35,092 nucleotides of DNA from Pseudomonadota bacterium (GTDB lineage: Bacteria; Pseudomonadota; Gammaproteobacteria; Burkholderiales; Burkholderiaceae_C). Shown piece by piece: positions 1 through 23,102 of the stretch (positions are counted from its first letter, which is position 1; the number at the start of each line of letters is the position of its first letter). The DNA is taken from contig JAKAHP010000003.1 in assembly GCA_021825505.1 (NCBI GenBank), positions 1-35,092 of the forward strand, read 5' to 3'. The notes beneath the pieces are model-generated. The model did not search any database, was not told where the DNA came from, and saw only the letters and a program-made list of their open reading frames with translations. The position numbers and the translations under genes were made by a program.

Positions 1-2665
1 CCGATCTGTGCAGGTCGGCCAGCCGCTCGATGCTGCTGTAGCCGGTGCCGAGGTCGTCCATCGCCAGGCGCACGCCGAGCGCGCGCAGGCGCTCGATCGC
101 GGCGCCGTGGGCCTGCGTGTCGAACGCCTGCGCATCCAGCAGCTCCAGCGTCAGGCGCTGCGGCGCGACACCGTGGCGCTGCAGTGCCACGGCGATCCAG
201 CCGGCGCAGTCCGTGTCGAGCAGCGTCGACGCCGGCAGGTTGATCGACAGCTCGACCGCGGCGTCGGCCAATGTCCCCAGCGCCTGCTCGAGGCCGAGGC
301 GGAACAGTCGGTCGAGTTCGACGCCGCCCAGCGACGGCAGGAACGCCGCCGGCTCGACCAGTCGCCCGTCGGGCATGCGCAGCCGTGCGAGCGCCTCGAT
401 GCGCACGGTGCGTGCATCGCGCAACGCGACGATCGGCTGGCCGTGCATTTCCAGCCCGCCGCCGAACAGCTGCAGTTGCAGCGCGCGCGCCTGATCCTGC
501 GACAGCACCGCGGCGCCGGACGGCGTCGTGCACTGCGCCCAGATCGCTTCGAGCCGGCGTTGCAGGCCCACCGCCCATTGCCGCATCCAGGCGCTTGCGA
601 ACTGCGCGCCCTGTTCGCCGAACAGGGTCAGCACGCCGGCGGCGCGCCCGTCGCGGCCGACGAACGGCACCGCGACTTCGGCGCGCACATGCAACGCGAT
701 GCCGGCGTCGCGCCACGGCGCCACGCGGGCATCGTGCGCCCAGTCGTCGATGCGCTGGGTCTGCCGCGTGTGCCAGGCGTCGGCTGTCGCGCTGCGCCCG
801 CGCGGCGTTTGCAGATCTAGGCTGGGCAGGCGGGCGCGCGCGAACAGTTGTGCGACCTGGGCGTCGCCGGCGCGTGCGGCGCTGCGTTCGACCACCAGTT
901 CAGCGTCGTGGTTCGGACGGATCAGCGCGACCGCGACGATGCCGGGCAGCGCGGCGATGAACTCGACTTCGCGTTGCGCCGCGTCGCTCCAGCGCGTGCC
1001 GGGATCCGGTCGCGGCCGCGACAACGTTTGCAGATACATCTGCGTGACATCCTCGGCGGCGGCGAACTCGGCTTGCAGCTGGTCGTGCGTGCGTGCGTCG
1101 ACGATGCGCAGCAATTGCCAGCGGCGGCTCGCCGAAAGCCGCGCGCTGCCCAGTGCATCGGCCAGCAGCGTGCGATACAGCACCGAGGCGCGTGCCAGCA
1201 TCGAGCCGCTGACGCCGGCCAGACAGTGCAGGGTACCGAGCTGGCGCGCCTGCTGCAGCACGGCGTCGCGCGTGGCCTGCGGCGCCACCCGCAGCTGCAA
1301 TTGCTGCAACTGCTGGCGCCTGATCTCGTCGCGCTGCGCGGCGTCCAGCCCGGCCAGCAGCGCGCTGCCCTGGGCATCGGCGCGCAGCTCGCGCTCGAGC
1401 GCTTCGAGGTAGCTCGCATGGATGCGCTCGGCCCACGCCGTGTGCTCGCCGAGCACCGCGGCAGCGTCGGCACCGTAGGGCGACAGCTCGCGCTCGGGCG
1501 CGTCGACAGCGTCGCTGACGCCGAACTGCCACCAGCTGTGGCGCGTTTCCTTGTGCTGCTTGAGCTGGTACATCGACGCGTCGGCCACGCGCAGCAGCAG
1601 GTCGGGGTCGGTGGCGTCGAGCGGGTAGCGCGCCACGCCCAGCGTCAGGCCGACCTGGGCGCTGGCGCCACCGGCCAGCGCCACCGGCGCGGTGCCGGCG
1701 TCGTGGATGCGCGTGAACACCGCGCCAAGTTGCGCCGTGGCGTGCACTGGGTCGAGATCCTCGATGACGACGACGAATTCGTCGCCGCCGAGCCGGGCGA
1801 TCAACTCGCTGGCGCGCTGCTGCGCGGCCCAGCGGTGCGCCAGCTCGCGCAGCAGCGCATCGCCGGCTTCGTGCCCGTGGCGGTCGTTGACCTCCTTGAA
1901 ACCGTCGAGGTCGATGTAGCCGACCGCGACCTGGGTGCCGCCACGGCGCGCGCGCGCCAGCGCGTCGTGCAGGCGCAGCTGCAGCGCGAGGCGGTTGGGC
2001 AGCCCGGTCAGGGCATCGTGCAGTGATTGGTGCGCAGCGCGCGCGCGCAGTCGTGACAGACCGACGAAGGAGGACTCGGTGCGCACGCCGGCCAGCGCCA
2101 GATAGCCGTAGTACAGCAAGGCCAGCGCGCCGATCGGCTGCAGCGTCGGGTCACCGCTGGTGAACAGCCGCAGCGTGCTGCTCAGCGCCGCCGGCAGCAT
2201 GAACAGGAAGGACGAGGTCGCATCGGACGACTGCTGCGCGGCGCCGGCGCCGCACACCGCGGCGATCACCGCAGCCACCAGCAGTTCGTCGAATGCCGAC
2301 GCCTGTGCCGGCAACAACGGCAGCGCCGCCCACACCAGACCCAGCACGAATACGCTCAGCCGCAGCCGGCGCAACCAGCGCGCGCCATGGCGGCCTGCTT
2401 CCAGATCCTCGCGCGCGGCAAACCAGATGCCCAGTCGCAGCATGTGGCCGGCCAGAACCGCGCCGACCCAGGCCGTCAGGCCTGCCGTCGAAGCGTGCGC
2501 GTGCAACTCCCAGGCGAGCAGCATGGCCGGCAGCACGCTGCCGACGAGGCCGATCGGAATGGTCGGCAGCAGCGACGCAGCCTGGTCGAGCGCGCTGAGC
2601 TCGGCTTCGGCAGCCGGCAAGGGCAGGCCGGGGTCGCGGGGGCCCGGGGAGGGCGAGGAGGACAT
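1..2665 (-). CDS. Membrane GGDEF - protoglobin-like - GAF-like - EAL protein, C-terminus truncated by the window edge
   Basis: Minus-strand reading from ATG (cat at 2663-2665): MSSSPSPGPRDPGLPLP..., about 6 TM segments, LTGLPNR...ARLGGDEFVVV, LGTLHCLAGVSGSMLARASVLYRTLL (GCS-like F-helix His), IEALARL, NLPAST, LTLELLDAQ, MDDLGTGYSS. The plus-strand ORFs here are antisense. Confidence 0.85.
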   Translation of the reverse strand, partial: MSSSPSPGPRDPGLPLPAAEAELSALDQAASLLPTIPIGLVGSVLPAMLLAWELHAHASTAGLTAWVGAVLAGHMLRLGIWFAAREDLEAGRHGARWLRRLRLSVFVLGLVWAALPLLPAQASAFDELLVAAVIAAVCGAGAAQQSSDATSSFLFMLPAALSSTLRLFTSGDPTLQPIGALALLYYGYLALAGVRTESSFVGLSRLRARAAHQSLHDALTGLPNRLALQLRLHDALARARRGGTQVAVGYIDLDGFKEVNDRHGHEAGDALLRELAHRWAAQQRASELIARLGGDEFVVVIEDLDPVHATAQLGAVFTRIHDAGTAPVALAGGASAQVGLTLGVARYPLDATDPDLLLRVADASMYQLKQHKETRHSWWQFGVSDAVDAPERELSPYGADAAAVLGEHTAWAERIHASYLEALERELRADAQGSALLAGLDAAQRDEIRRQQLQQLQLRVAPQATRDAVLQQARQLGTLHCLAGVSGSMLARASVLYRTLLADALGSARLSASRRWQLLRIVDARTHDQLQAEFAAAEDVTQMYLQTLSRPRPDPGTRWSDAAQREVEFIAALPGIVAVALIRPNHDAELVVERSAARAGDAQVAQLFARARLPSLDLQTPRGRSATADAWHTRQTQRIDDWAHDARVAPWRDAGIALHVRAEVAVPFVGRDGRAAGVLTLFGEQGAQFASAWMRQWAVGLQRRLEAIWAQCTTPSGAAVLSQDQARALQLQLFGGGLEMHGQPIVALRDARTVRIEALARLRMPDGRLVEPAAFLPSLGGVELDRLFRLGLEQALGTLADAAVELSINLPASTLLDTDCAGWIAVALQRHGVAPQRLTLELLDAQAFDTQAHGAAIERLRALGVRLAMDDLGTGYSSIERLADLHRS

Positions 2666-2830: not shown

Positions 2831-5800
2831 ATGGTGCGACGACGATGTGTCCCAGCACGATCGCACTCGCCTAACATCGGATTACGCTCCCTTAGGCGGG
2901 TGCCCGCCACGGCGAGCGCCGCACACTCGAAAAGGTCTGGACTGCAATTGCGCGCGCACCGCACCCTGTTGATCAACGCCGCTACCGCCGCCGCCTATCT
3001 GGCGCTGGCGGAATTGCCGGCGCTGGTGTTTCGAGGCGCATCGCCGCTGTGGCCGCCGGCCGCGCTGGCCGCGTTCGTCGTGCTGCGCTGCGGCTGGAGG
3101 GCGGCGCCCGGCGTGTTCATCGGTTCGCTGCTGGCCAATCTGCTGGCGTCGCGCCTGGGGCCCGGCGCCGCGCTGGTCGCCTCGCTGGGCAACGTCGGCG
3201 CACCGCTGCTCGGCCGTGCCCTGATGCGCCGCCTGGGCGGCACGCTCGAGGCCTGGTGGGAAAGCCCGCGCGCCGAACTCGCCTTCCTGTTCGCGATGGG
3301 GGCGGGGCAATCGCTGCTGTCGGCCGCGGTCGGCACCGGCGGCATGGTCGTGTTCGGCCGCCTGCCGCACGGCGCGGCTGACGCGCTGCTCGGCTGGGCG
3401 GTCGGCGACGCCAGCGCGGTGATGATGCTGACGCCGCTGATGGAAATCGCCTGGACGCGCTGGCGCGGCACCGAGCAGCCGCCGCTGGGTCCGCCGCTGC
3501 CCATCGCCGCGGCGTTCGCGCTGGTGCTGGTGATCTGGGCGCTGGCGGCGGGCGCCGGGGCGTTGACGCCGGCCCAGCGCACCGGGCTGCTCGGGCTGAT
3601 CATGTTTCCGTTGATCGGCTCGGTGTTCGCGCTCGATGCGGCGGTCACTGCGGGGCTGCTGGCGTTCGTCTTCGTGCTGTTGACCACATCCGCCGCGGTC
3701 GGCGTGCCGATCGTCGCCCAGGTATCGTCGGCGCAGACCATCGTCGCGCTCGAGTTCTTCCTGCTCTCAGTCGGCGGCGCGGTCAGCTTCGCGTCGGCGC
3801 TGCAGCACGCGCGGCGCGGTGCGCTGCGCCGCTTGCAGCAGCAGGCCGCGCAGCTCGACACGCTGGCGCGCGAACGCGCCGACACGCTGCTCGAACAGCG
3901 TGAACAGTTCCACGCCCAGATCGTGCAGCTGTCGGAGCTGACCACGGTGCTGGCCGCGGTCAACCAGCTGATCGCGCAGGCGCAGGACGACGCCGGCCTG
4001 CTGCAGCGTTTCTGCGACCGCGTCGCCGCGTTGCGCGGCGTCGCGCTGGCCTGGATCGGCCGCCCCGACGACGCCGGGCGCTTCGCAGTGCTGGCCAGTG
4101 CCGGCCAGGCGCGCGCCTACCTGGACGGCATCACGATCGTCGTCGATCCCGCATCGGCGCTGGGCCAGGGGCCGACGGGCCAGGTCTGGCTGCGGCAGCA
4201 GGCGGTATTCGTCGGCGACCTCGCGGCCGACCCCGCACTGGCGCCGTGGCGCGAGCGCCAGCATGCCTACGGCATCCTGGCGGCGGCCAGCCTGCCGCTG
4301 TTCCGCGGCGGCCGCATCTGGGCCGTGCTCAATCTGTACCTGACCGCGACCACCGCGTTCGATGTCGAGCTGCGCAAGGTCGCCGAGCGCATCGCCGCCG
4401 ACATCTCGATCGGGCTCGATCGGCTCGACGCGATCCACACCGAGCGCGCGCAGTCGCGCATCAACGCCGCGCTGCTGTCGAACCTCAGCGTCGGCGTGAC
4501 CGTGATGCGCTACCCCGAACGCGTGTTCGAGCACGTCAACGAGCGCCTGCTCGAAATGGCCGGGGCCGCCGACCTGGCCGAGTTGCAGAAGTATCCGGCG
4601 TCCGATTTCTATGACGATCCGGCCGACTACGCGCGGGTCGGCGAGCTCGCGCGCGAGGTGCTCGAGCATGGGCGCGGTGCGCTGCAGGACGTGCGCTACC
4701 GCCGCCTCGACGGGCGCGCGCTGATGCTCGACACCGGCGGCGTCAGGCTCGACCTGGGCGACGGCGTGCAGCGCATCCTGTGGACCCAGGTCGACGTCAG
4801 CGAGCGCCACCGCCAGGCCCAGCAGCTGCGCGCGGCGACCACGTCGCGCGCCGCGCTGCTGGCCAACACGGTCGCGGCGATCGACATGGTGCGCTATCCC
4901 GAGCGCGTCATCACCGAAGTCAACCAGGGCTTCCTCGACATCTTCGGCTATGCGTCGGCCGACGAAGTGGTCGGCCAGTCGACCGCGATCATCTACGCCA
5001 AGATCACCGAGTCGCAGCGCATGGCCGAGCTGTCGCAGCGCATTCTCGAGGTCGGCGAGGGCAACCTCGACGAACTCGAGGTCTTGCGCCACGACGGCAC
5101 GCTGGTCTACCTCGACGTGCACGGGCGCCGCCTGGACGGCGACGACCCGAGCCACCCGCTGATCGTCTGGACTTCGATCGACGTGACCCGGCGCCGCGCA
5201 CTCACCGAGGAGCTCAAGCGGCTGGCGATGTTCGATGCGCTGACCGGGCTGCCGAACCGGCGCGCGGTGGAGGCGCATATAGGCCGCGCCATCGAGCGCG
5301 CCAAGCGCCACGGCAGCGCGGTCGCGGTCGGCATGATCGACCTCGACGACTTCAAGCCGGTGAACGACCGCCTCGGCCACGAGGCCGGGGACCGCCTGCT
5401 GCAGCAGCTGGCGGCGCGCCTGCAGGGGGTGATGCGCACCATCGACCTGGTCGGCCGCTTCGGCGGCGACGAGTTCGTCATCGTGCTCGAGGACCTGAAG
5501 CCCGACGCGGTGGCCGCGCAGCTCGAACAGATCCTGGCGCGGGTGCACGAAGCCGTCGAGACGCCGTTCACGCCTGGCGACGGCTCCGGCGTCTACATCG
5601 AGATGAGCCTGGGGCTGGCGGTCTACCCGATCGACTCGGATCAGCCCGACGCGCTGCTGCGCGCCGCCGACGCGGCGATGTACCAGGCGAAGAAGAACAA
5701 GGTCGAGCGAACCAGCTGGTGGATGATGGGCGCCAGCGCGCCGAGCGTGACGGAGGCTCCGTTCGACCCGTTCAGCGAGGAGTCGCAGAAGAACCTGGCC

Positions 5801-7744
5801 GGCATCGCGGGGCAGATGCACGAAATCGCCGACGAGTTCACCTCGGCGTTCTACGACGAACTGGGCAAGCGCGACGAGGGTGCGAAAGTCCTCGCCGCGC
5901 TGACCGAGGACGAACTCGCCGAGCTGAAGGCGATCCAGGCGCGCCACTTCGCCTTCCTGCTCGCGCCGGACACGCGCGCGCACCAGATCGCCGCGCGCGG
6001 ACGCGCGGTCGGGCGCATCCACGCCCTGAGTGGGCTCAGCGCGGCGACCATGAGCGACGCCTACGCGCTGTACCGCGAATTGCTGCGCTGGCACCTCGAC
6101 GCCTGGGGCATGCAGACGCGCGTGCGCTACCGTACGCTGCGCGCTGCCGACGAGCGGCTGCAGATCGAGATGCAGGCCGAGCTCGACGCGATGCAGGGTG
6201 TGGTCAACCAGTACAACGAAGCGCTGGCGCGCCCGGGCGCGGCGCAGGCCCCGATGGTCGAGCTGGTGCAGCGTGAGCTCGACATCGTCGCCGCGCTGCC
6301 GGGCATTGTCGCGGTGCTGGTGATGCGCCCCCAGGCCGACGGGCTGGTGCACGCCGAACTGGCCGCCGGCGAGTCGGCCGAGGCGGTGCTCAAGGTGCTC
6401 GGCGATCCCTCGATGATGCCGACGCTGGACGCCAGCAGCCCGGCCGGGCAGGGCCTGGTACGCGCCGCCTGGGTGTCGGGCAATATCGAACGCATCGACT
6501 CCTACGGGCGCGACGCGCGCTCGCTGCACTGGGCGCAGCCCATGCTCGCGCTGGGCGTGCGCAGCATGGTCGCGGTGCCGGTGCAGGGCGCGCGCAGCCA
6601 GTTCGTGCTGGCCCTGCTCGGCGGCTTCCGCAGCCAGTTCTCGGGGAGCTGGGTGCAGACCTTCCTGGTCTCGCTGCAAAGCCGCTGGATCGGCATCATG
6701 AGCCGCACCGCGTCGACCCTCGAGGTCACCGAGCCGGACCGCGTCGCACGCTACCGCGAGCTGCTCTATGCGCGCAGCCTGAGCATGCATCTGCAGCCGG
6801 TGGTCGACACGCGCAGCGGCGAGGTCGTCAAGGTCGAGGCCCTGGCGCGCCTGCTCGACGGCGACGAAGTCATCGCGCCGGGGCGCTTCCTGCCGGCGCT
6901 GCGCTCGGCCGACCTCGACGTGCTGTTCCGCGCCGGGCTCGATCTCAGCCTGGCCTGGTTGCAGCAATGCCGCGGGCGCGGCCGCGCGCTGGGTATTTCG
7001 CTGAATCTGCCGCCGTCGATGCTGGTGCACGCGGAATGCGCGCAGTGGATCGACGACGGCCTGCGCCGCTTCGAGCTGCCGCCGCCGGCGCTGACGCTGG
7101 AGCTGCTCGAGTCGCAGGAGTTCGACGACGTGCAGCACGACCGCGCGATCCGCGCGCTGGGCGACCTCGGCGTGATGCTGGCGATCGACGATCTGGGCTC
7201 CGGCTACAGCAGCCTGAGCCGGCTGGCCAGTCTCCCGTTCGACGTGATCAAGGTCGATCAGAGCATCACCGCCGAAGTGATGCGCGCGCCACTGAAGGTG
7301 CTCAGCCTGATTCGCACCGTGGTGCAGATCGGCAAGGACCTCGACCGCGACGTCATCGTCGAGGGTGCCGAAACGCACGATGTGCTCGACGCGGTGACCG
7401 TGCTCGGCGCGCATCACGTGCAGGGCTACGCGATCGCGCGCCCGATGCCGCCCGAGGCCTTTTTCGACTGGGAACGGCAGCACCGGGCGGCGTGGCAACC
7501 GGTCGGTGGCGTCGACACCTGGCTCGGCGCGCTGGCCTATGGCTGGCTGTACATGCACAGCGAGGGCGGGCGTTACCCGACCCCGCATGCGCAATGCCCG
7601 CTGACGCGCTTCCTGGGCGCGCAAGGGCTGGCGCACGCCGATGCGGCGGCGTGGCACGCGCAGTTGCACGGCGAGGTCGCGCCGCAGGAACGCCGCGCGC
7701 TGCAGGCCCGGCTGATCGACTGGCTGGCGCGGCGCATCGGCTGA
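2831..7744 (+). CDS. MASE1 - GAF - PAS - PAS - GGDEF - protoglobin - GAF - EAL - Cys/His-tail protein, about 1600 aa; start codon uncertain
   Basis: MASE1-like [45 protein letters not shown] with RTID I-site; VGRIHALSGLSAATMSDAYALYREL; VEALARL, NLPPS, ELLESQ, DDLGSGYSSL, IKVDQS, VEGAET, QGYAIARPMPP. MASE1 begins about 45 aa after the first ATG, so a later start is possible. Confidence 0.92.
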   Translation: MVRRRCVPARSHSPNIGLRSLRRVPATASAAHSKRSGLQLRAHRTLLINAATAAAYLALAELPALVFRGASPLWPPAALAAFVVLRCGWRAAPGVFIGSLLANLLASRLGPGAALVASLGNVGAPLLGRALMRRLGGTLEAWWESPRAELAFLFAMGAGQSLLSAAVGTGGMVVFGRLPHGAADALLGWAVGDASAVMMLTPLMEIAWTRWRGTEQPPLGPPLPIAAAFALVLVIWALAAGAGALTPAQRTGLLGLIMFPLIGSVFALDAAVTAGLLAFVFVLLTTSAAVGVPIVAQVSSAQTIVALEFFLLSVGGAVSFASALQHARRGALRRLQQQAAQLDTLARERADTLLEQREQFHAQIVQLSELTTVLAAVNQLIAQAQDDAGLLQRFCDRVAALRGVALAWIGRPDDAGRFAVLASAGQARAYLDGITIVVDPASALGQGPTGQVWLRQQAVFVGDLAADPALAPWRERQHAYGILAAASLPLFRGGRIWAVLNLYLTATTAFDVELRKVAERIAADISIGLDRLDAIHTERAQSRINAALLSNLSVGVTVMRYPERVFEHVNERLLEMAGAADLAELQKYPASDFYDDPADYARVGELAREVLEHGRGALQDVRYRRLDGRALMLDTGGVRLDLGDGVQRILWTQVDVSERHRQAQQLRAATTSRAALLANTVAAIDMVRYPERVITEVNQGFLDIFGYASADEVVGQSTAIIYAKITESQRMAELSQRILEVGEGNLDELEVLRHDGTLVYLDVHGRRLDGDDPSHPLIVWTSIDVTRRRALTEELKRLAMFDALTGLPNRRAVEAHIGRAIERAKRHGSAVAVGMIDLDDFKPVNDRLGHEAGDRLLQQLAARLQGVMRTIDLVGRFGGDEFVIVLEDLKPDAVAAQLEQILARVHEAVETPFTPGDGSGVYIEMSLGLAVYPIDSDQPDALLRAADAAMYQAKKNKVERTSWWMMGASAPSVTEAPFDPFSEESQKNLAGIAGQMHEIADEFTSAFYDELGKRDEGAKVLAALTEDELAELKAIQARHFAFLLAPDTRAHQIAARGRAVGRIHALSGLSAATMSDAYALYRELLRWHLDAWGMQTRVRYRTLRAADERLQIEMQAELDAMQGVVNQYNEALARPGAAQAPMVELVQRELDIVAALPGIVAVLVMRPQADGLVHAELAAGESAEAVLKVLGDPSMMPTLDASSPAGQGLVRAAWVSGNIERIDSYGRDARSLHWAQPMLALGVRSMVAVPVQGARSQFVLALLGGFRSQFSGSWVQTFLVSLQSRWIGIMSRTASTLEVTEPDRVARYRELLYARSLSMHLQPVVDTRSGEVVKVEALARLLDGDEVIAPGRFLPALRSADLDVLFRAGLDLSLAWLQQCRGRGRALGISLNLPPSMLVHAECAQWIDDGLRRFELPPPALTLELLESQEFDDVQHDRAIRALGDLGVMLAIDDLGSGYSSLSRLASLPFDVIKVDQSITAEVMRAPLKVLSLIRTVVQIGKDLDRDVIVEGAETHDVLDAVTVLGAHHVQGYAIARPMPPEAFFDWERQHRAAWQPVGGVDTWLGALAYGWLYMHSEGGRYPTPHAQCPLTRFLGAQGLAHADAAAWHAQLHGEVAPQERRALQARLIDWLARRIG

Positions 7745-8215: not shown

Positions 8216-9601
8216 TCAGCCGCCGACGCCGAGCCGGCTGCGCCAGCCCGGGTACAGCGCGTCGGCGTCGTGCGGGAACGATTCGAAGGCGCGCGCGAAT
8301 TCACGGTGCTCGCGCGCCCAGTCCAGCGGATCGGCGCCGGCCTTCCAGCATTCGTAAGCCTGGCGCAGCGAGATAGCGCCGGCCGCCGGACTGTCGAGGT
8401 GGCCGTAGGAGCCGCCGCCGGCGGTGTTGATGATGTTGCCGTGGCCGAGGTTGTCGAAAAAGCCCGGCAGGCGCAGCGCGTTCATGCCGCCGGAGATGAT
8501 CGGCGTGGTCGGCTTCATGCCGAACCACTTCTGGAAGTAGACCGGGCCCTGGCACTCGTCGCGCTCGATCATGTAGGCGATGATGCGGTCGTCGCCTTCG
8601 CCTTCCATCTTGCCGTAGCCCATCGTGCCGACGTGGATGCCCGAGGCGCCCTGCAGCCGCGCCATCTTGGCCAGCACGAAGGCGGTATAGCCGCGCCTGG
8701 ACGACGGCGAGGTGATCGCGCCGTGGCCGGCGCGGTGGTAATGCAGGTACTGGTTCGGATACTGGCGGCGCGCGGTCGTCACCATGCCCGGGCCGCCGAC
8801 GTAGCCGTCGACCAGGAAGGCCAGCTTGTCGGCGTCGGGGCCGAAGGTCTCGAGCGCGAAGTCGGCGCGCGCGCACATCTCGTAGTGATCATCGGCGGTG
8901 ATGTTCATCGAGAACAGCTTGGCCTGGCCGGTCTCGTCCTGCGCGCGCTTCAAGGCGTCGTAGACCAGCGGCAGCGTTTGCTTGATCGGTGCGAACACCT
9001 GGTTGCCCTGCGGCTCGTCGTTCTTGATGAAATCGCCGCCGAGCCAGAACTGGTAGGCGGCGTCGGCGAAGGGCTGCGGGCGCAGACCGAGCTTGGGCTT
9101 GATGATCGTGCCCGAGATGTAGCCGCCGTCGCGTACCGGGCGACCGAGGATGCGCCACAGGTCGGCAATGTCCTTGGACGGTCCGTCGAACATCTGGATC
9201 ACGCGGTCGGGCATGTGGAAGTCGATCATCTTCGCGTGCGCGATGTCGCCCATGCCCTGGTTGTTGCCGATGGTCAGCGTCAGGAACGACACCAGCATGA
9301 AGCGGCCGTCGATCACGTTGCGGTCGAACAGCTCGATCGGATAGGCGATGCGCATGTCCTCGCTGGCCTCGTCGATGTGATAGACGAGGGCGTCGACGCC
9401 GCGCGTGAAGTCGTCGGTGGTCGACACCTCGACGTTGGTTCCGGTCGACGATTCGGCAGCGAAGTGCGCGGCAGCCTCCAGATAGGCGATGCCGCCCTTC
9501 GGCTTCATCTTGTACGCGACGAGGATGTGACGGCCACCGGCGATCAGGTCCTCCTCGCGGAGGCTGAGGTCGGCGTAGCGGTGGGATTGATCGTGGGCCA
9601 T
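8216..9601 (-). CDS. cbbM: Ribulose-1,5-bisphosphate carboxylase/oxygenase, form II
   Basis: 461 aa; [26 protein letters not shown] (carbamylated Lys motif), [63 protein letters not shown]. Confidence 0.98.
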
Positions 9602-12104: not shown

Positions 12105-13700
12105 GTGCACAAGCTCCCTGAATTGCGCTGGGACGCGTCGATTGCGACCGGTGTGGCCGAAGTCGACGCGCAGCACCAGCATTTGTTCGACGTGTTCAAT
12201 GCGGCGGCGCGTGCGCAGGCCGCCGGCAGCGCGCAGGCCGATGCGCTGATCACCGAGCTGATCGACTACACGCGCGAGCATTTCCGCACCGAAGCCGAGC
12301 TGATGCGGCGCTGGCCGGTCGATCCCGCGGGCAAGGCCGCCCACCTGGGCGCGCACCAGCGCTTCGTCGACTTTCTCGACCAGGCCCAGGCGGTGGCGGC
12401 CGATCAGCCGGCCGAAACCGTGCTCGACCTGCTGGCGTTTCTCGCACAATGGCTGCTGCACCATGTCGCCGGGGTCGACGCGCGGCTGGCGCGCGAAGTG
12501 CGCGCGCTCGAGGCCGGTGCACCGTTGCCGCCGCTCGAGACTGACGCGCCGATGCAGCGCCTGAGCGACGCCATGGGCCAGCTGACCGACGCGCTGGTGC
12601 AGCGCACCTTCGAGTTGCTCAGCGAGCGCGAGCGCCTGGCCAATCTGCAAAAGCTCTACCGCGTGCTGCTGCACTCGGGGGACGTGCTGATCCAGAGCCG
12701 CAGCGAGCAGGAGATGCTCGACAGCCTGTGCAGCAAGATCGTGCAGCACACGCCGTTCCATGCCGCGTGGATCGGCCGGCCGCGCGGCGAGGGCGAGCTG
12801 TTCGAGGTGCTGGCCAAGTTCGGCGAGGGTACCGGGCAGGTCGATGCGGCGACGCCGCGCATGACCCCCGAGTACCGCAATTCGATGACGGTACGCGCGT
12901 GGACCGGAGGCCAGCTGCTGTACAGCAACGACACGCTGGCCGATGTGCTGCTCGAACCCTGGCACGCGGGGCTGGCCGAACACCGCTGGTTCAGCGCGCT
13001 GGCGGTGCCGATCCTGCGCGGCGGGGCGATCTGGGGCGTGCTCACGCTGGCGTCGCCGCGCCGCGGCACCTTCGACGACGCGACGCTCGACGTGTGCGCG
13101 CGCATCGCCGCCTTGCTCGGTTACGGCCTCGATGAACTCGACCTGAAGGCGCGCATCCAGTCCCTGCAAAGCGTCGAGGCCACGCTGGCGCGCACCGACG
13201 CGCTGACCGGTCTGCCCAACCGCTACGCGCTGGACGAGCATCTGCGCGCGGTGATGCCGCAGGCGCGGCGGCAAGGTCTGGTGCTGGCGCTCGGGCTGCT
13301 CGACCTGGACGATTTCAAGCAGGTCAACGATCAGCACGGCCACGACGCCGGCGACGCACTGTTGCGCGAGTTCGGCCGCCGCGTGCGCGAAGGGCTGCGC
13401 AGCGCCGACTTTTTCGCCCGGCTTGGCGGCGACGAGTTCGTCGTCGTGTTCGAGCGGCTCGACGCCGGGGCGCAGGTCGAGAGCGGGCTCGAGCGTTTGC
13501 ATCGCGCCGTCGAAATCCCCTTCATACTCCAAGGTGGGCAGCGTGCAACCGTAGGAATGACGATGGGTTTGGCGCTATACCCAGCCGATGGCGATTCCGT
13601 GCGGGAGCTGTTGCGCAGCGCCGACGCGGCGATGTACCTGGCCAAGCTGCACAAGCGTGAGCGCACCCACTGGTGGCGCTTCGCCGCGTCCGCGGCCTGA
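12105..13700 (+). CDS. Bacteriohemerythrin - GAF - GGDEF diguanylate cyclase
   Basis: Hemerythrin ligand pattern: VDAQHQHLFDVFN, EHFRTEAELM (HxxxE), HLGAHQRF (HxxxH), LLHHVAGVD (HxxxxD). GAF with FHAAWIGRP; LRSADFFARLGGDEFVVVFE. Confidence 0.92.
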   Translation: MHKLPELRWDASIATGVAEVDAQHQHLFDVFNAAARAQAAGSAQADALITELIDYTREHFRTEAELMRRWPVDPAGKAAHLGAHQRFVDFLDQAQAVAADQPAETVLDLLAFLAQWLLHHVAGVDARLAREVRALEAGAPLPPLETDAPMQRLSDAMGQLTDALVQRTFELLSERERLANLQKLYRVLLHSGDVLIQSRSEQEMLDSLCSKIVQHTPFHAAWIGRPRGEGELFEVLAKFGEGTGQVDAATPRMTPEYRNSMTVRAWTGGQLLYSNDTLADVLLEPWHAGLAEHRWFSALAVPILRGGAIWGVLTLASPRRGTFDDATLDVCARIAALLGYGLDELDLKARIQSLQSVEATLARTDALTGLPNRYALDEHLRAVMPQARRQGLVLALGLLDLDDFKQVNDQHGHDAGDALLREFGRRVREGLRSADFFARLGGDEFVVVFERLDAGAQVESGLERLHRAVEIPFILQGGQRATVGMTMGLALYPADGDSVRELLRSADAAMYLAKLHKRERTHWWRFAASAA

Positions 13701-13716
13701 GCCGCGGACGCGGCGA
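13681..13716. other. Perfect 16-bp stem / 4-nt loop hairpin spanning the stop codon of the hemerythrin-GGDEF gene
   Basis: TCGCCGCGTCCGCGGC-CTGA-GCCGCGGACGCGGCGA; TGA of the CDS is 13698-13700. Confidence 0.8.
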
Positions 13717-13768
13717 TACACTGCGCGCCTATGCTGGACCCGCGCCCAGGCGGGCTGATTGCCGAACG

Positions 13769-16700
13769 ATGCCACCACCGATGAACTCCGGGGCCGCGCC
13801 GCGCGAGCGCGCCGGGCCACGCGACGCCCACGCCGACCGGGTGCGCCTGCTCTACGCCGGGGTGGTGCCGGCGGCGATCGGCGGCGTCGTCGTGCCGCTG
13901 GCGGTCGCCTGGCTGCTGCGCGCGCATGCCCCCGCGCATTGGCTGCTGGCGTGGATTGCGGCACAAGCGCTGGCGCACGGCGCGCTGCTGGGAGTCGCAC
14001 GCTGGCGCGCGCGCCACGCCGAACCCGACGCCGAGGTCTGGCTGCGGCGCTTTCGCGCCTGCGCGCTCGCGGTCGGCGCTGCCTGGTCGCTGCTGCCCCT
14101 GGCGCTGTTTCCGTCGACGGTGCTGCTGCAGCTGCTCGTCACCTGCGTGCTGATCGCGTCGGCCGGCGTGGTGCTGGCCAAACTGGTGCCCGACCTGCCG
14201 TCGGCGCTGCTGTTCCTGGCGCCGTCCGGGCTCGCGCTCACCGCCCAGCTCGCGGCGTCGGCGCACCCGATGATGCACGTCGTCGCGTTGCTGGCGGCGC
14301 TGTACTTCATCGCGATCGGCGTCGCGATGCGCGCCACCAGCGCGGCGTTCGACGAGAACGCGCGCATGCGTGCGCTCAACGCCAGGCTGGCCGATTACAA
14401 CGCCTTCCTCGGCCAGGTCCACCGCACCATCGCGCTGGCGCAGGACGAGGCCGACCTGCTGCAGACGATCTGCGCGCTCGCGGTGCGCTACGCCGGCGTG
14501 CGCCTGGCCTGGGTCGGCCGGCCCGACGCGCAGGGGCGCATCCGCTTCGTCGGCAAGTCCGGGCCGGCGCTGGCGGTGCTCGACACGCTCGAACTCAGCG
14601 TCGACGCGGCGCCCGACGGCAGCGAAGGCAGCGTCGCACGCGCCTGGCGCGAGCAGCGCGCGCTGTTCAACGTGGCGCGGCCGGCGGCGATCCGGCCGTG
14701 GCTGCAGCGCGCCGCGGCGCAGAACCTGGACACCAGCGCGGTGCTTCCGATCCGGCGGCGCGGCGAGGCGTGGGCACTGCTCGCGCTGTACGCGGCCAGC
14801 TCCGATCCCTTCGACGAGGCGCTGCAGCGCGTGCTGCTCGACCTCGCCGACAGCGTCTCGCACGGGCTCGACGTGATCGAGGCGCGACGCTGGACCGAAA
14901 CCCTCAGCGAGCACAGCGAGGCCGGTGTCGCGCTGGTGCGCCAGCGCCGCATCGTGTCGGCCAACCGGCGCTTCGCGCGCATGTTCGGGTTCGACACGGT
15001 CGATGCGCTGGTCGGCATGCCCACGCGCGAGCTCTATCCCGATGCGGCGACCTACCAGGCGGTCGGCGCGCACCACGCACGCCTGGCCGACGGCGAGACG
15101 GTGCGCCTGCAGTCGATCCCGTTCCGCCGGCGCGACGGCCGCACGCTGCCCTGCGACCTGACCGGCTCGCGCATCGACGCCGAGCAGTCGATCTGGACCT
15201 TCGTCGACGTCGAGCGGCGCGACGAGGAACATCGCCAGTTGCTGCAGCTCGAGCGGCTGTACCGCGCGCTGCTCGGCGAAGCCGACGTGCTGCTGCAGGC
15301 GCGTACCGAGCAGTTGATGCTCGAGCAGACCTGCGCCCGGCTGGGCGGCGAGGCGATTTTCCACGCCGCGTGGATCGGCCGCCCCGACGCCGCCGGGCGC
15401 ATGCAGGTGCTGGCGCGCGCTGGAGCTGGCGCCGGCGCGCTCGACCAGATGGCGATCACCATCGACGATCCGCAATCGCTGGTGGCGCGCGCCTGGCGCG
15501 AAGGATCCGTGGTGCATATGAACGACGCGGCGCGGCGCGCGAGCCCCTGGGTGGCGGAGTTCGAGCGCCACCGCTGGGGCTCGGCACTGGCGGTGCCGGT
15601 GCAGCGCGGCGACGCGCGCTGGGGGGTGCTGGCCTTCGTGTCGCTGGACGCCGCTGCGTTCGACGCCAAGACCATCGAAGTCTGCACCCGCGTCGCGGCG
15701 TTGCTCGGCCACGCGCTCGACGAGCTCGACCTGAAGCAGCGCATCTCGCAGTTGCAGGCGGAGGAGGCGCACCGCGCGCGCCACGACGTGCTGACCGGCC
15801 TGCCCAACCGACGTGCGCTCGAGCAGCACCTGCCGCAGGCCATCGCTCGCGCCGCGCGCGCCGGCACGGCGCTGGCGCTGGGCATGATCGACCTCGACGA
15901 CTTCAAACCGGTCAACGACCGCTACGGCCACGAGGCCGGCGACACCCTGCTGCGCGAGCTCGGCGCGCGGCTGCAGCGCGTGTTGCGCGCCACCGATCTG
16001 GTCGTGCGGCTCGGCGGCGACGAATTCGTCGTCGTGCTCGAGCAGCTCGACCGCACGCAACATCTGGCCGAGCTCGACGCCTCGCTGCAGCGCCTGCACC
16101 AGGCGGTCGAGACGCCGTTCGACCTCGGTGGCGGCCGGCGCGCCGAGGTCGGCATGAGCATGGGCGTGGCGCTGTACCCGATCGACGACGTCGAGCCCGA
16201 TGCGCTGATGCGTCGTGCCGACGCCGCGATGTACCGCGCCAAGGCCGACAAGGTCGGCCGCCTCGCCTGGTGGAGCCTGGGCGATGAAGCGCCGCGCGCG
16301 CCGGCGCGCGAAGCACCGTTCGACGCGTTCGGCGACGCCGCGGCGGCGCTGCTGGGCGCGGTGTGCGCGGAGCTGGCGCCGGTCAGGCAGCAGTTCATCG
16401 AGGACTTCTACGCCGAGCTGACGCGCCACGACGAGACCGCCGCGGTGCTGGCCAGTCTGTCGGCCGAGGAATTGGTGCGGCTGCAACAGGCGCAGGCGCA
16501 GCATCTGGCGTTTCTGCTCGACCCGTCGAGCAGCGCGCTGGCGATCGTCGAACGCGCACGCCACCTCGGCGAAGTGCATGCGCTGATCGGCGTCAGCCCG
16601 TCGTGGCTGACGCGTGCGACCAACGTCTACCACGATCTGTTGCAGCGCCACGTCGACCGCAGCGCGCTGGCGGCACGCGAGCGCTACCACACGCTGCGCG

Positions 16701-18349
16701 CGGCCGACGCGCGCCTGCAACTGGACCTGCACACCGAGCTCGACGCGATGCAGGCGGTGGCCGACACCTACAGCGCGCACGCGGCGCGCGCCTTGCCGCC
16801 CGCCGGCGCCAGCTGGGCCAGCCTGGTGCAGTCCGAACTCGACGCACTCGGTGCGCTGCCCGGCGTGCGCGCCTGCCAGCTGCTGCGCCCGCGCGACGAC
16901 GGCTCGTTCGCCATCGAGTTCAGCGGCGGCCCGGCCGCGGCCTCGATGGAGCGCGTCGCGCAGACCGCGGGCCTGACGCCGCAGCTCGACGCGCGCCAGC
17001 GCGCCGGCCAGGGGCTGAACCCGCTGGCCTGGCACAGCGAGCAGATCCAGCACAGCGACGCCTACGCGCTGGATGCGCGCACCCAGGTCTGGCACGAGGC
17101 GCTGGCCGCGCTGGGCATACGCAGCATCGTCGCGATTCCGGTGCTCGGCGGGCACGGCCCCGAGTTCGTGCTGGCCATCGAAGGCGCGTTCCCGCATCAA
17201 TTCTCCAACCGCTGGGCGCGCGACCTGTGCGTGGCGCTGCAGAATCGCTGGAGCCAGATCGCGCGGCTGACACAGCCCGGCGCAGCGACGCCGCTGACGG
17301 TCACGCAGGCCACCGAATTCCGCCGCCTGTTCCATTCCGGTGCGCTGTGCATGGACATGCAGCCGGTGATCAACCTGCGCGACGGCCGCCTGGTCAAGCT
17401 CGAGGCGCTGGCGCGGCTGCGCCGCGCCGATGGCGGCATCATCGCGCCGGCGCAGTTCCTGCCGTCGCTGCGCGACAGCGACCTCGACGCGCTGTTCCGC
17501 CAGGGCCTGGAAATCGCACTGGGCTGGCAGCGCGCCTGGCGCGAGCGCGGCCTCGACGTCGAGCTGGCGCTGAACCTGGCCCCGTCGACGCTGGTGCACG
17601 CCGACTGCGCGGCGTGGGTCGCCGAGGCCTTGCAGCGCCACGCCATCGAGCCGCAGCGCCTGACGCTGGAACTGCTCGAGAACCAGCAAGTTGCCGAAGG
17701 GCGACGCGACGAGGCGATCGCTGCATTGCAGCGTGTCGGCGTGCGCCTGGCAATCGACGACCTGGGGTCGGGCTACAGCAGCCTGAAGCGGCTGGCCAGC
17801 CTGAACTTCGACGTGATCAAGGCCGACCAGTCGCTGGTGCGCGACGTCGCCGCCGATCCGGTGAAGACGCTCAGCCTGGTGCGCACCATCGTGCAGATCG
17901 GACGCGACTTCGATCGCGAAGTGGTCGTCGAGGGCCTGGAAACCGCACCGTTGATCGAAGCCGTGATGCGCCTGGGCGCCAGCCAGGGCCAGGGCTGGGG
18001 CCTGTCGCGGCCGATGCCGCCGGAGACGGTGCTGAACTGGGCCGCGCAATGGCGCTGGAATACGACGCCGCAGGCCGGCATCGCCAGCTATCTCGGTGCG
18101 CTGGCCTATCACTGGCGCTACATGCACGAGGACGTCGGCCGCTTCCCGCTGCAGCACGACGCGTGTCCGCTGAGTGCCTTCCTCGAGGCGCGCGGGCACG
18201 GCGCGGAGGACCCCGGCCACTGGCACCGCGCGGTGCACGAGGCGGCCGACGCGCAGGCACGCACCGCGGCCAGCCGCCAGCTGCTGGCCTGGCTGGCCGC
18301 GCGCGTGCGCATCGAGGCGGGGCACACGCCCCCTGAGGCCGCAGGCTAG
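13769..18349 (+). CDS. 6TM - GAF - PAS - GAF - GGDEF - protoglobin - GAF - EAL - Cys/His-tail protein, about 1526 aa
   Basis: LRATDLVVRLGGDEFVVVLE; HLGEVHALIGVSPSWLTRATNVYHDLL (close to GCS F-helix VHxRIGxxPxW); LEALARL, NLAPSTL, LTLELLENQ, IDDLGSGYSSLKRL, IKADQS, VEGLET, QGWGLSRPMPP. ATG at 13769 (MPPPMNSG). Confidence 0.92.
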   Translation: MPPPMNSGAAPRERAGPRDAHADRVRLLYAGVVPAAIGGVVVPLAVAWLLRAHAPAHWLLAWIAAQALAHGALLGVARWRARHAEPDAEVWLRRFRACALAVGAAWSLLPLALFPSTVLLQLLVTCVLIASAGVVLAKLVPDLPSALLFLAPSGLALTAQLAASAHPMMHVVALLAALYFIAIGVAMRATSAAFDENARMRALNARLADYNAFLGQVHRTIALAQDEADLLQTICALAVRYAGVRLAWVGRPDAQGRIRFVGKSGPALAVLDTLELSVDAAPDGSEGSVARAWREQRALFNVARPAAIRPWLQRAAAQNLDTSAVLPIRRRGEAWALLALYAASSDPFDEALQRVLLDLADSVSHGLDVIEARRWTETLSEHSEAGVALVRQRRIVSANRRFARMFGFDTVDALVGMPTRELYPDAATYQAVGAHHARLADGETVRLQSIPFRRRDGRTLPCDLTGSRIDAEQSIWTFVDVERRDEEHRQLLQLERLYRALLGEADVLLQARTEQLMLEQTCARLGGEAIFHAAWIGRPDAAGRMQVLARAGAGAGALDQMAITIDDPQSLVARAWREGSVVHMNDAARRASPWVAEFERHRWGSALAVPVQRGDARWGVLAFVSLDAAAFDAKTIEVCTRVAALLGHALDELDLKQRISQLQAEEAHRARHDVLTGLPNRRALEQHLPQAIARAARAGTALALGMIDLDDFKPVNDRYGHEAGDTLLRELGARLQRVLRATDLVVRLGGDEFVVVLEQLDRTQHLAELDASLQRLHQAVETPFDLGGGRRAEVGMSMGVALYPIDDVEPDALMRRADAAMYRAKADKVGRLAWWSLGDEAPRAPAREAPFDAFGDAAAALLGAVCAELAPVRQQFIEDFYAELTRHDETAAVLASLSAEELVRLQQAQAQHLAFLLDPSSSALAIVERARHLGEVHALIGVSPSWLTRATNVYHDLLQRHVDRSALAARERYHTLRAADARLQLDLHTELDAMQAVADTYSAHAARALPPAGASWASLVQSELDALGALPGVRACQLLRPRDDGSFAIEFSGGPAAASMERVAQTAGLTPQLDARQRAGQGLNPLAWHSEQIQHSDAYALDARTQVWHEALAALGIRSIVAIPVLGGHGPEFVLAIEGAFPHQFSNRWARDLCVALQNRWSQIARLTQPGAATPLTVTQATEFRRLFHSGALCMDMQPVINLRDGRLVKLEALARLRRADGGIIAPAQFLPSLRDSDLDALFRQGLEIALGWQRAWRERGLDVELALNLAPSTLVHADCAAWVAEALQRHAIEPQRLTLELLENQQVAEGRRDEAIAALQRVGVRLAIDDLGSGYSSLKRLASLNFDVIKADQSLVRDVAADPVKTLSLVRTIVQIGRDFDREVVVEGLETAPLIEAVMRLGASQGQGWGLSRPMPPETVLNWAAQWRWNTTPQAGIASYLGALAYHWRYMHEDVGRFPLQHDACPLSAFLEARGHGAEDPGHWHRAVHEAADAQARTAASRQLLAWLAARVRIEAGHTPPEAAG

Positions 18350-18462: not shown

Positions 18463-19107
18463 ATGCCCGACGACCTCATCGCGCGCTTGCGCGACTTCCG
18501 CCAGCACGCGTTCCCCGGCTACGCCGACGCATTTCAGCAGTTGGTGGCCGACGGGCAGCATCCGTCGACCCTGTTCATCGGCTGTTCCGACTCGCGCGTG
18601 GTGCCGCACCTGCTGACCGGCGCGGCGCCCGGCGAGCTGTTCCTGGTGCGCAACGTCGGGGCCTTCGTGCCGCCGTTTCACGGCGACCACGGCCATCACG
18701 GCACCTCGGCGGCGATCGAGTTCGCGGTGCTGAACTTGCGCGTGCGCAACATCGTGGTGTGCGGCCACAGCCATTGCGGCGCGATTCGCGCGCTGTACGC
18801 GGATTCAAGCGACGAGGCGGTGAACCTCAACGCCTGGCTCGGCCTGGGGCGCGACGCACGGCTGCCGGTGCACGCACCCGATGCGGCCATGTTGCGGCGC
18901 ACCGAGCAGCGCTCGGTGGTGCTGCAACTCGAGCGCCTGCTCGACTACCCGATGGTGCGGCGCCGCGTCGACGCCGGCACGCTGACCCTGCATGGCTGGC
19001 ATTACATCATCGAGGACGGCGAAGTGCACACCTTCGACATCCGCGACGGCCGCTTCATTCCGGCCGCGCTGGCCGAGCACAGCGGCATCGGCCTGGCCCC
19101 GGTCTGA
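18463..19107 (+). CDS. Beta-class carbonic anhydrase
   Basis: MPDDLIARLRDFRQHAFPGYADAFQQLVADGQHPSTLFIGCSDSRVVP...LVRNVGAFVPPF...VVCGHSHCGAIRALY: conserved CxDSR and HxxC. Confidence 0.95.
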   Translation: MPDDLIARLRDFRQHAFPGYADAFQQLVADGQHPSTLFIGCSDSRVVPHLLTGAAPGELFLVRNVGAFVPPFHGDHGHHGTSAAIEFAVLNLRVRNIVVCGHSHCGAIRALYADSSDEAVNLNAWLGLGRDARLPVHAPDAAMLRRTEQRSVVLQLERLLDYPMVRRRVDAGTLTLHGWHYIIEDGEVHTFDIRDGRFIPAALAEHSGIGLAPV

Positions 19108-22196: not shown

Positions 22197-23102
22197 TCAA
22201 CGACCGTTGGCGGCCTCGCTGCCCAGCGCCTCGACCAGGAAGTCGATGAACACCCGCACCTTGCGCGGCAGCAGGCGCTGGCTCAGGTAGACCGCGTACA
22301 GATTCAGGTCGAAGGTGCGGTAGGACTCGAGAATCGGCACCAGGGTGCCGGCCCGCAACGCGTCCTCGACGATGAAGCGCGGCTGCAGGATGATGCCGGC
22401 GCCGCCGATCGCGAGCTCGCGCAGCAGCTCGCCGTTGCTCGAATGCACGGCAGGGCGTACCCGCACCTGTTCGCGCCGGCCGCTGGCGTCGGTGAACGGC
22501 CATTCGTCGCCGGCCCACAGGTAGCTGAAGCTCAGCGTGTCGTGCGCGGCCAGCTCGGCCGGCGTGCGCGGCGTTCCGCGTCGCTGCAGATAGCCCGGTG
22601 CGGCGCAGACGACGATGTCGAGCGCGACGATGCGGCGCGCCACCACGCCGGGATCGAGCCGGCTCGTGATGCGCAAGGCGACGTCGACGCCTTCGTGCGC
22701 CAGGTCGACCAGGCGATCGCTGAGGTCGACGTCCAGGCGCAACTGCGGATAGCGCTCGCGAAAGCGCGCCAGCACCGGCGCCAGGTGCGAGATGCCGTAG
22801 GACAGCGGCGCCGACAGCTTCAGCAGGCCGACGGGGTTGCGCGCGCCCTGGGCGGCGACCGCCTCGGCCTCGGCGACCTGCTCGAGGATGGCGCGGGCGC
22901 GCGCATGGAAGTCCTCGCCGGCGTCGGTCAAGGACATGCGCCGCGTGGTGCGGTTGAGCAGGCGCGCGCCGAGGTGGGCCTCGAGCGCGGCGACCTGGCG
23001 CGTGACCACGGCATTGGACAGGTCCAGCGCCTCCGCGGCGCGCGCGAAGCCGCCCGCGTCTACGACCTGAACGAATACCCGGGTTGCAGCCAGCAGATCC
23101 AT
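22197..23102 (-). CDS. LysR-family transcriptional regulator
   Basis: MDLLAATRVFVQVVDAGGFARAAEALDLSNAVVTRQVAALEAHLGARLLNRTTRRMSLTDAG: N-terminal wHTH of LTTRs. Confidence 0.95.
   Translation of the reverse strand: MDLLAATRVFVQVVDAGGFARAAEALDLSNAVVTRQVAALEAHLGARLLNRTTRRMSLTDAGEDFHARARAILEQVAEAEAVAAQGARNPVGLLKLSAPLSYGISHLAPVLARFRERYPQLRLDVDLSDRLVDLAHEGVDVALRITSRLDPGVVARRIVALDIVVCAAPGYLQRRGTPRTPAELAAHDTLSFSYLWAGDEWPFTDASGRREQVRVRPAVHSSNGELLRELAIGGAGIILQPRFIVEDALRAGTLVPILESYRTFDLNLYAVYLSQRLLPRKVRVFIDFLVEALGSEAANGR

Follow-up and report, generated by a model that had tools for sequence, protein, structure and literature searches.

A globin-coupled-sensor globin between the GGDEF and EAL domains of a Burkholderiales protein belongs to a lineage-expanded family

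The DNA analyzed here (the window) comprises 35,092 nucleotides of contig JAKAHP010000003.1 from a bacterium of the Burkholderiaceae_C (assembly GCA_021825505.1). An open reading frame on the plus strand (2831 to 7744) encodes a protein of 1637 amino acids, termed W1, for which the frame and Pfam searches gave the architecture MASE1-GAF-PAS-PAS-GGDEF-Protoglobin-GAF-EAL followed by a helical tail; all features of W1 described below lie on the same strand. The MASE1 membrane sensor domain (residues 53 to 314; positions 2987 to 3772) was recognized by Pfam with 49.5 bits and the N-terminal GAF domain (residues 388 to 530; 3992 to 4420) by the Pfam model GAF_2 with 75.6 bits. Two stretches of the protein matched the Pfam model PAS_9, the better one covering residues 692 to 786 (4904 to 5188). 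The GGDEF domain (residues 799 to 957; 5225 to 5701) was detected by Pfam, and a residue check showed an intact motif at residues 878 to 882 and the I-site residues R869 and D872. It is followed by a linker (5702 to 5770) of low pLDDT with WW and PF motifs that are conserved in the alignment, and then by the Protoglobin domain (residues 981 to 1115; 5771 to 6175). In the AF2 model a long helix (residues 1096 to 1133; 6116 to 6229) leads from the C-terminal end of the globin towards a second GAF domain (residues 1142 to 1296; 6254 to 6718), which remained below the cut-off in Pfam (14.7 bits, E = 0.044) but was clear in the AF2 model and in its Foldseek matches to GAF domains. The EAL domain (residues 1308 to 1538; 6752 to 7444), found by Pfam, has a complete set of catalytic residues (E1336, N1392, E1424, D1453, D1454, K1474, E1511, and Q1531). 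According to the model and the alignment, the protein ends with a helical tail (7463 to 7741) containing a conserved Trp and a conserved Cys. Within this tail, a conserved LGALAY.W motif, the Cys, and frequent His positions form a layout resembling that of a zinc-binding (CZB-like) domain. We rejected an identity as CZB domain, as positions 7529 to 7741 gave no CZB match in Pfam up to an E value of 10.

The original prediction, made from the DNA sequence, placed a Protoglobin domain inside this GGDEF-EAL protein, with a candidate proximal His at 6020 to 6022 and an FY at the distal-pocket position, and all three elements were recovered. The Pfam Protoglobin model (PF11563), whose curated cut-off is 25 bits, gave 27.8 bits for the complete W1 sequence; for the isolated segment the score rose to 32.1 bits (E = 1.4e-7). 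A search of the PDB with the single W1 globin sequence gave weak matches (best 8h17, E = 0.19). With a profile of ten paralogous globins, 8h17 (2.1e-6), 2w31 (7.5e-5), 5ohe (0.0029), and 7o0i (0.0071) were found, and the matches with E < 0.01 were exclusively globin-coupled-sensor (GCS) globins in which FY and His were aligned. An AF2 model of residues 958 to 1308 built from 14 sequences reached a mean pLDDT of 85.6 and a pTM of 0.80. In a Foldseek search its first half matched 8h17 (TM 0.79 of the target, 2.1 Å, 147 columns), while its second half fell among GAF domains. The candidate distal (B10-type) residue is Y1008 (5852 to 5854), which is aligned with the FY of 8h17 and conserved in the family, and the candidate proximal haem ligand is H1064 (6020 to 6022), which is aligned with the His of 8h17 that is conserved among GCS globins. 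The two residues are 56 positions apart in W1, compared to 55 for Tyr43 and His98 of Escherichia coli DosC (PMC5549716) and 54 for Tyr49 and His103 of GCS-HD-GYP (PMC10882959). The Pfam score, the residue spacing, the profile matches, and the match of the AF2 model to 8h17 put the assignment of the segment as an internal GCS globin well beyond chance, and on this sequence and model evidence we regard it as confirmed. That W1 binds haem, which gas it senses, and in which direction it responds are what we infer from there. A further histidine in the E-helix region, H1039 (5945 to 5947), is a His in 88% of the family, and the aligned solved GCS globins seem to have Trp or Tyr at this position.

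With the GGDEF domain upstream and the EAL domain downstream, the globin of W1 (residues 981 to 1115 of 1637) does not occupy the N-terminal position that is usual, though not strictly defining, for GCS proteins. In an AF2 model of 850 amino acids the stretch between GGDEF and globin appeared as low-confidence coil, whereas the last helix of the globin extended over 38 residues (1096 to 1133) towards the GAF domain; with a pTM of 0.55, the relative domain placement in this model is not to be trusted. The closest ortholog, L020 of the metagenome-assembled genome (MAG) LL7.bin22, is 93% identical to W1 in the globin-GAF part. In this comparison dN/dS was lowest in the globin (0.057) and higher in GGDEF (0.139), EAL (0.187), the second GAF (0.215), and the N-terminal sensors (0.25 to 0.46); these values are rough because they derive from a single ortholog pair.

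The genome (3.1 Mb, 81% complete) contains 13 Pfam Protoglobin domains, and a family profile recovered 18 globin-GAF modules, three of which lie in the window. W2 (13673 to 18349, plus strand) has the same design as W1, with GAF domains, PAS, GGDEF, Protoglobin (16328 to 16729), GAF, and EAL. W3 (2 to 2665, minus strand) is likewise of this design, is divergent from W1, and is cut by the window edge; its globin (about 1061 to 1468) was not reported by the Pfam search and was recovered with the family profile. We therefore discarded Pfam alone as a census of the family, as it misses members. Thirteen of the 18 modules are part of GGDEF-globin-GAF-EAL proteins (in one of which a contig end truncates the GGDEF), while the remainder comprises two globin-GAF-EAL proteins, two GGDEF-globin(-GAF) proteins without a visible EAL (one of them contig-cut), and one globin-GAF protein. 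The genome has 38 EAL matches in total, and 15 of them lie in globin-GAF proteins. The proximal His is present in 16 of the 18 modules and absent in C303 and C393.

The globin of W1 thus belongs to a large, lineage-expanded family. Each of 12 genomes of the same genus contained 1 to 12 Protoglobin matches, compared to none or one in each of eight genomes from other families of the order. Protoglobin was present in 126 of 398 Pseudomonadota genomes; among the matches listed for these and outside the genome studied here, no open frame exceeded 891 amino acids, so that long multi-domain carriers appear to be uncommon. A scan of 369 genomes of the class identified GGDEF-globin-GAF-EAL relatives in five further families, one of them (L116) confirmed by Pfam. 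Uniqueness, which the original prediction implied, was rejected: this genome has 18 modules, two further copies lying in the window, and proteins with the same domain order also occur elsewhere in the genus, among named MAGs, and in the five other families. The named relatives, found with an alignment of four closer paralogs as the query, are MAGs that carry the deposited names Proteobacteria, Burkholderiales, Ferrovum sp., and Thiomonas sp.; these names suggest an origin from acid mine drainage and a likely acid, iron-rich habitat. A phage or virus origin was rejected because the viral contigs contained no relatives, and spread by plasmids was rejected because the single globin-bearing relative on plasmids was a globin-GAF-EAL protein of Caballeronia (WP_244817502.1), whose globin lies below the Pfam cut-off.

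The proximal His was found in 95 of the 111 rows of a family tree, on which it changed nine times. In independent pairs, the distal Tyr changed in the same direction as the His in about five of nine cases and in the opposite direction in 0.1 (median p 0.06). Since the Tyr tends to be lost where the His is lost, these sequence comparisons hint, at borderline significance, at a shared function of the two residues, as haem binding would predict. Across the family the distal residue is Tyr, Trp (in one clade), Glu, Phe, His, or Leu. In one clade (L077, L070, L094, L084, and L107) Gln replaces the proximal His and the distal Tyr is present (e.g., GVKQALMG). In the classic N-terminal globin-GGDEF proteins of the genus (L037, L043, L060, L065, and L080) Tyr or Phe is aligned in place of the proximal His, several of them having the motif GALYYRWGL, whereas most embedded globins have the His.

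As to the enzyme that the globin serves, the EAL catalytic residues were complete in 107 of 110 EAL-bearing members, W1 included, and one of the three exceptions is truncated at the end of its contig. In the same 110 members, which had been selected for having an EAL domain, GGDEF was intact in 65, absent in 28, degenerate in 16, and contig-cut in one. Outside this selection about eight globin-GAF proteins lack an EAL, and in five of these a GGDEF domain precedes the module; some of the eight may be contig cuts or duplicates. The existence of GGDEF-globin-GAF proteins without EAL (C105/L017, L036, and L052) shows that the module can also sit behind a cyclase only. A quickly built tree with 111 rows needed only four changes to account for the presence of GGDEF, and stand-alone globin-GAF-EAL proteins occurred in at least two of its clades; several stand-alone globin-(GAF)-EAL proteins were confirmed by Pfam. 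The stand-alone proteins, the nearly always intact EAL, the frequent loss or degeneration of GGDEF, and the predicted long helix on the EAL side as opposed to a coil on the GGDEF side favor globin-GAF-EAL as the working unit, with GGDEF as an upstream, separately sensed partner; a backward effect of the globin on GGDEF is possible. Of the idea that a haem sensor is inserted between two opposing enzymes, the internal position between GGDEF and EAL with both pocket residues was thus retained, whereas the family comparison and the model favored a coupling to the downstream GAF-EAL part over an action on both enzymes. Frames of 814 amino acids in four genomes (L078, L079, L081, and L112) follow a GGDEF-globin-GAF-EAL gene as a second gene of this kind; they have lost the haem-pocket residues as well as the GGDEF motif (GADSI), with the EAL intact.

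Taken together, W1 is probably a protein in which a GCS globin precedes a GAF-EAL phosphodiesterase, this unit being fused behind a membrane-anchored and separately sensed GGDEF cyclase. O2 or another diatomic gas would bind to a haem on H1064, with Y1008 stabilizing the bound O2, and the signal would pass through the long helix at the globin end to the second GAF domain and set the activity of EAL. The activity of GGDEF would be set by the MASE1/GAF/PAS region. By analogy with DcpG, GCS-HD-GYP, and Chp1, O2 would most likely raise phosphodiesterase activity and lower the c-di-GMP level.

A two-way switch, in which the embedded globin signals in both directions and, depending on its ligand state, favors either GGDEF or EAL, appears rather unlikely. 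It would fit the intact motifs of both enzymes in W1, the WW and PF motifs of the linker, the GGDEF-globin-GAF proteins that lack EAL, and the precedent of DcpG, where one globin is reported to control both activities (PMC10882959). Against this stand the predicted lack of structure in the low-confidence linker, the persistence of globin and EAL where GGDEF is absent or degenerate, and the sensors that GGDEF has of its own upstream. Still less probable is a globin without haem that acts as a helical scaffold or dimerization element between the enzymes. The 16 of 111 relatives that lack the proximal His and keep the domain and the enzymes show that the fold is able to survive loss of the ligand, and the Pfam score of W1 barely exceeds the cut-off, but W1 retains both His and Tyr, the His is present in most relatives, and no other segment of W1 is as constrained as the globin. 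That haem is bound and the signal is the redox state, NO, or CO instead of O2 seems very improbable: ligand responses do differ among GCS globins (PMC10882959), and the presumed acid, iron-rich habitat of the named relatives suggests strong redox variation, but the distal Tyr that stabilizes O2 in DosC (PMC5549716) is present in W1.

To our knowledge, the characterized globin-coupled c-di-GMP enzymes carry their haem at the N-terminus and usually number one or few per genome. The globin of DcpG from Paenibacillus dendritiformis is N-terminal. Like W1, DcpG combines one GCS globin, GGDEF, and EAL in a single chain, and its O2 form is reported to degrade c-di-GMP and its NO form to make it (PMC10882959). 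In W1, unlike DcpG, the globin lies between GGDEF and GAF-EAL, and GGDEF has its own MASE1/GAF/PAS input. DosC/YddV of E. coli and BpeGReg of Bordetella share with W1 a GCS globin with proximal His and distal Tyr and a role in c-di-GMP signaling (PMC5549716, PMC8846402); in contrast to W1, their N-terminal globin drives a C-terminal GGDEF domain, and EAL, MASE1, PAS, and GAF domains are absent. A link of the globin to c-di-GMP breakdown is found in Chp1, an O2-activated protoglobin phosphodiesterase of Azorhizobium (PMC8846402, Table 3), and in the O2-activated GCS-HD-GYP of Vibrio fluvialis (PMC10882959), the latter differing from W1 by an N-terminal globin, a different hydrolase domain, and the lack of GGDEF. 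According to a review of 2022, the protoglobin O2 sensors of c-di-GMP proteins are often located at the N-terminus (PMC8846402). In the acidophile group Acidithiobacillus, Protoglobin was reported in 80 of 387 GGDEF-EAL proteins, some of them on mobile elements, and AFE_1712 is listed globin-first as Protoglobin-GGDEF-EAL-CZB, an order that is given by the listing alone; the passages of this paper on the Acidithiobacillus proteins contain no discussion of an internal globin (PMC6416229). Our literature search, which left subscription papers mostly outside, found no description of a globin between GGDEF and EAL, and because of this coverage the result is weak evidence of novelty.

In this genome of 3.1 Mb the sensor has moved into bifunctional enzymes and is present 18 times, and there are natural variants in which the haem ligand, the motif of the cyclase, or an entire enzyme half is missing. 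Such a set lends itself to studying how a sensor decides between c-di-GMP synthesis and breakdown, and it bears on how bacteria read gas levels in steep O2 and iron gradients. Tentatively, the genus may possess as many as 18 embedded haem sensors, connected in this genome to about 40% of its EAL enzymes. With their diverged distal pockets and different upstream inputs, these sensors could control c-di-GMP through a series of graded thresholds for gas or redox state instead of through one O2 sensor.

Several other genes are located among the globin proteins of the window. A RuBisCO large chain of 461 amino acids, form II-like by its length, is encoded at 8219 to 9601 (minus strand), a carbonic anhydrase at 18463 to 19104 (plus strand), and a LysR-type regulator at 22200 to 23102 (minus strand). 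The link between RuBisCO and the globin proteins is by position only. We rejected a conserved link to W1, as among 11 genomes of the genus this second RuBisCO match was clear only in this genome and its closest relative, and in the latter the comparison is limited by contig ends. A RuBisCO-bearing element of A. ferrooxidans is reported to carry c-di-GMP proteins with a globin (PMC6416229). Directly upstream of W2, a Hemerythrin-GAF-GGDEF protein (12105 to 13700, plus strand) represents a second type of O2/redox sensor in the cluster, and its neighborhood is conserved in MAG LL7.bin22 (L024/L040).
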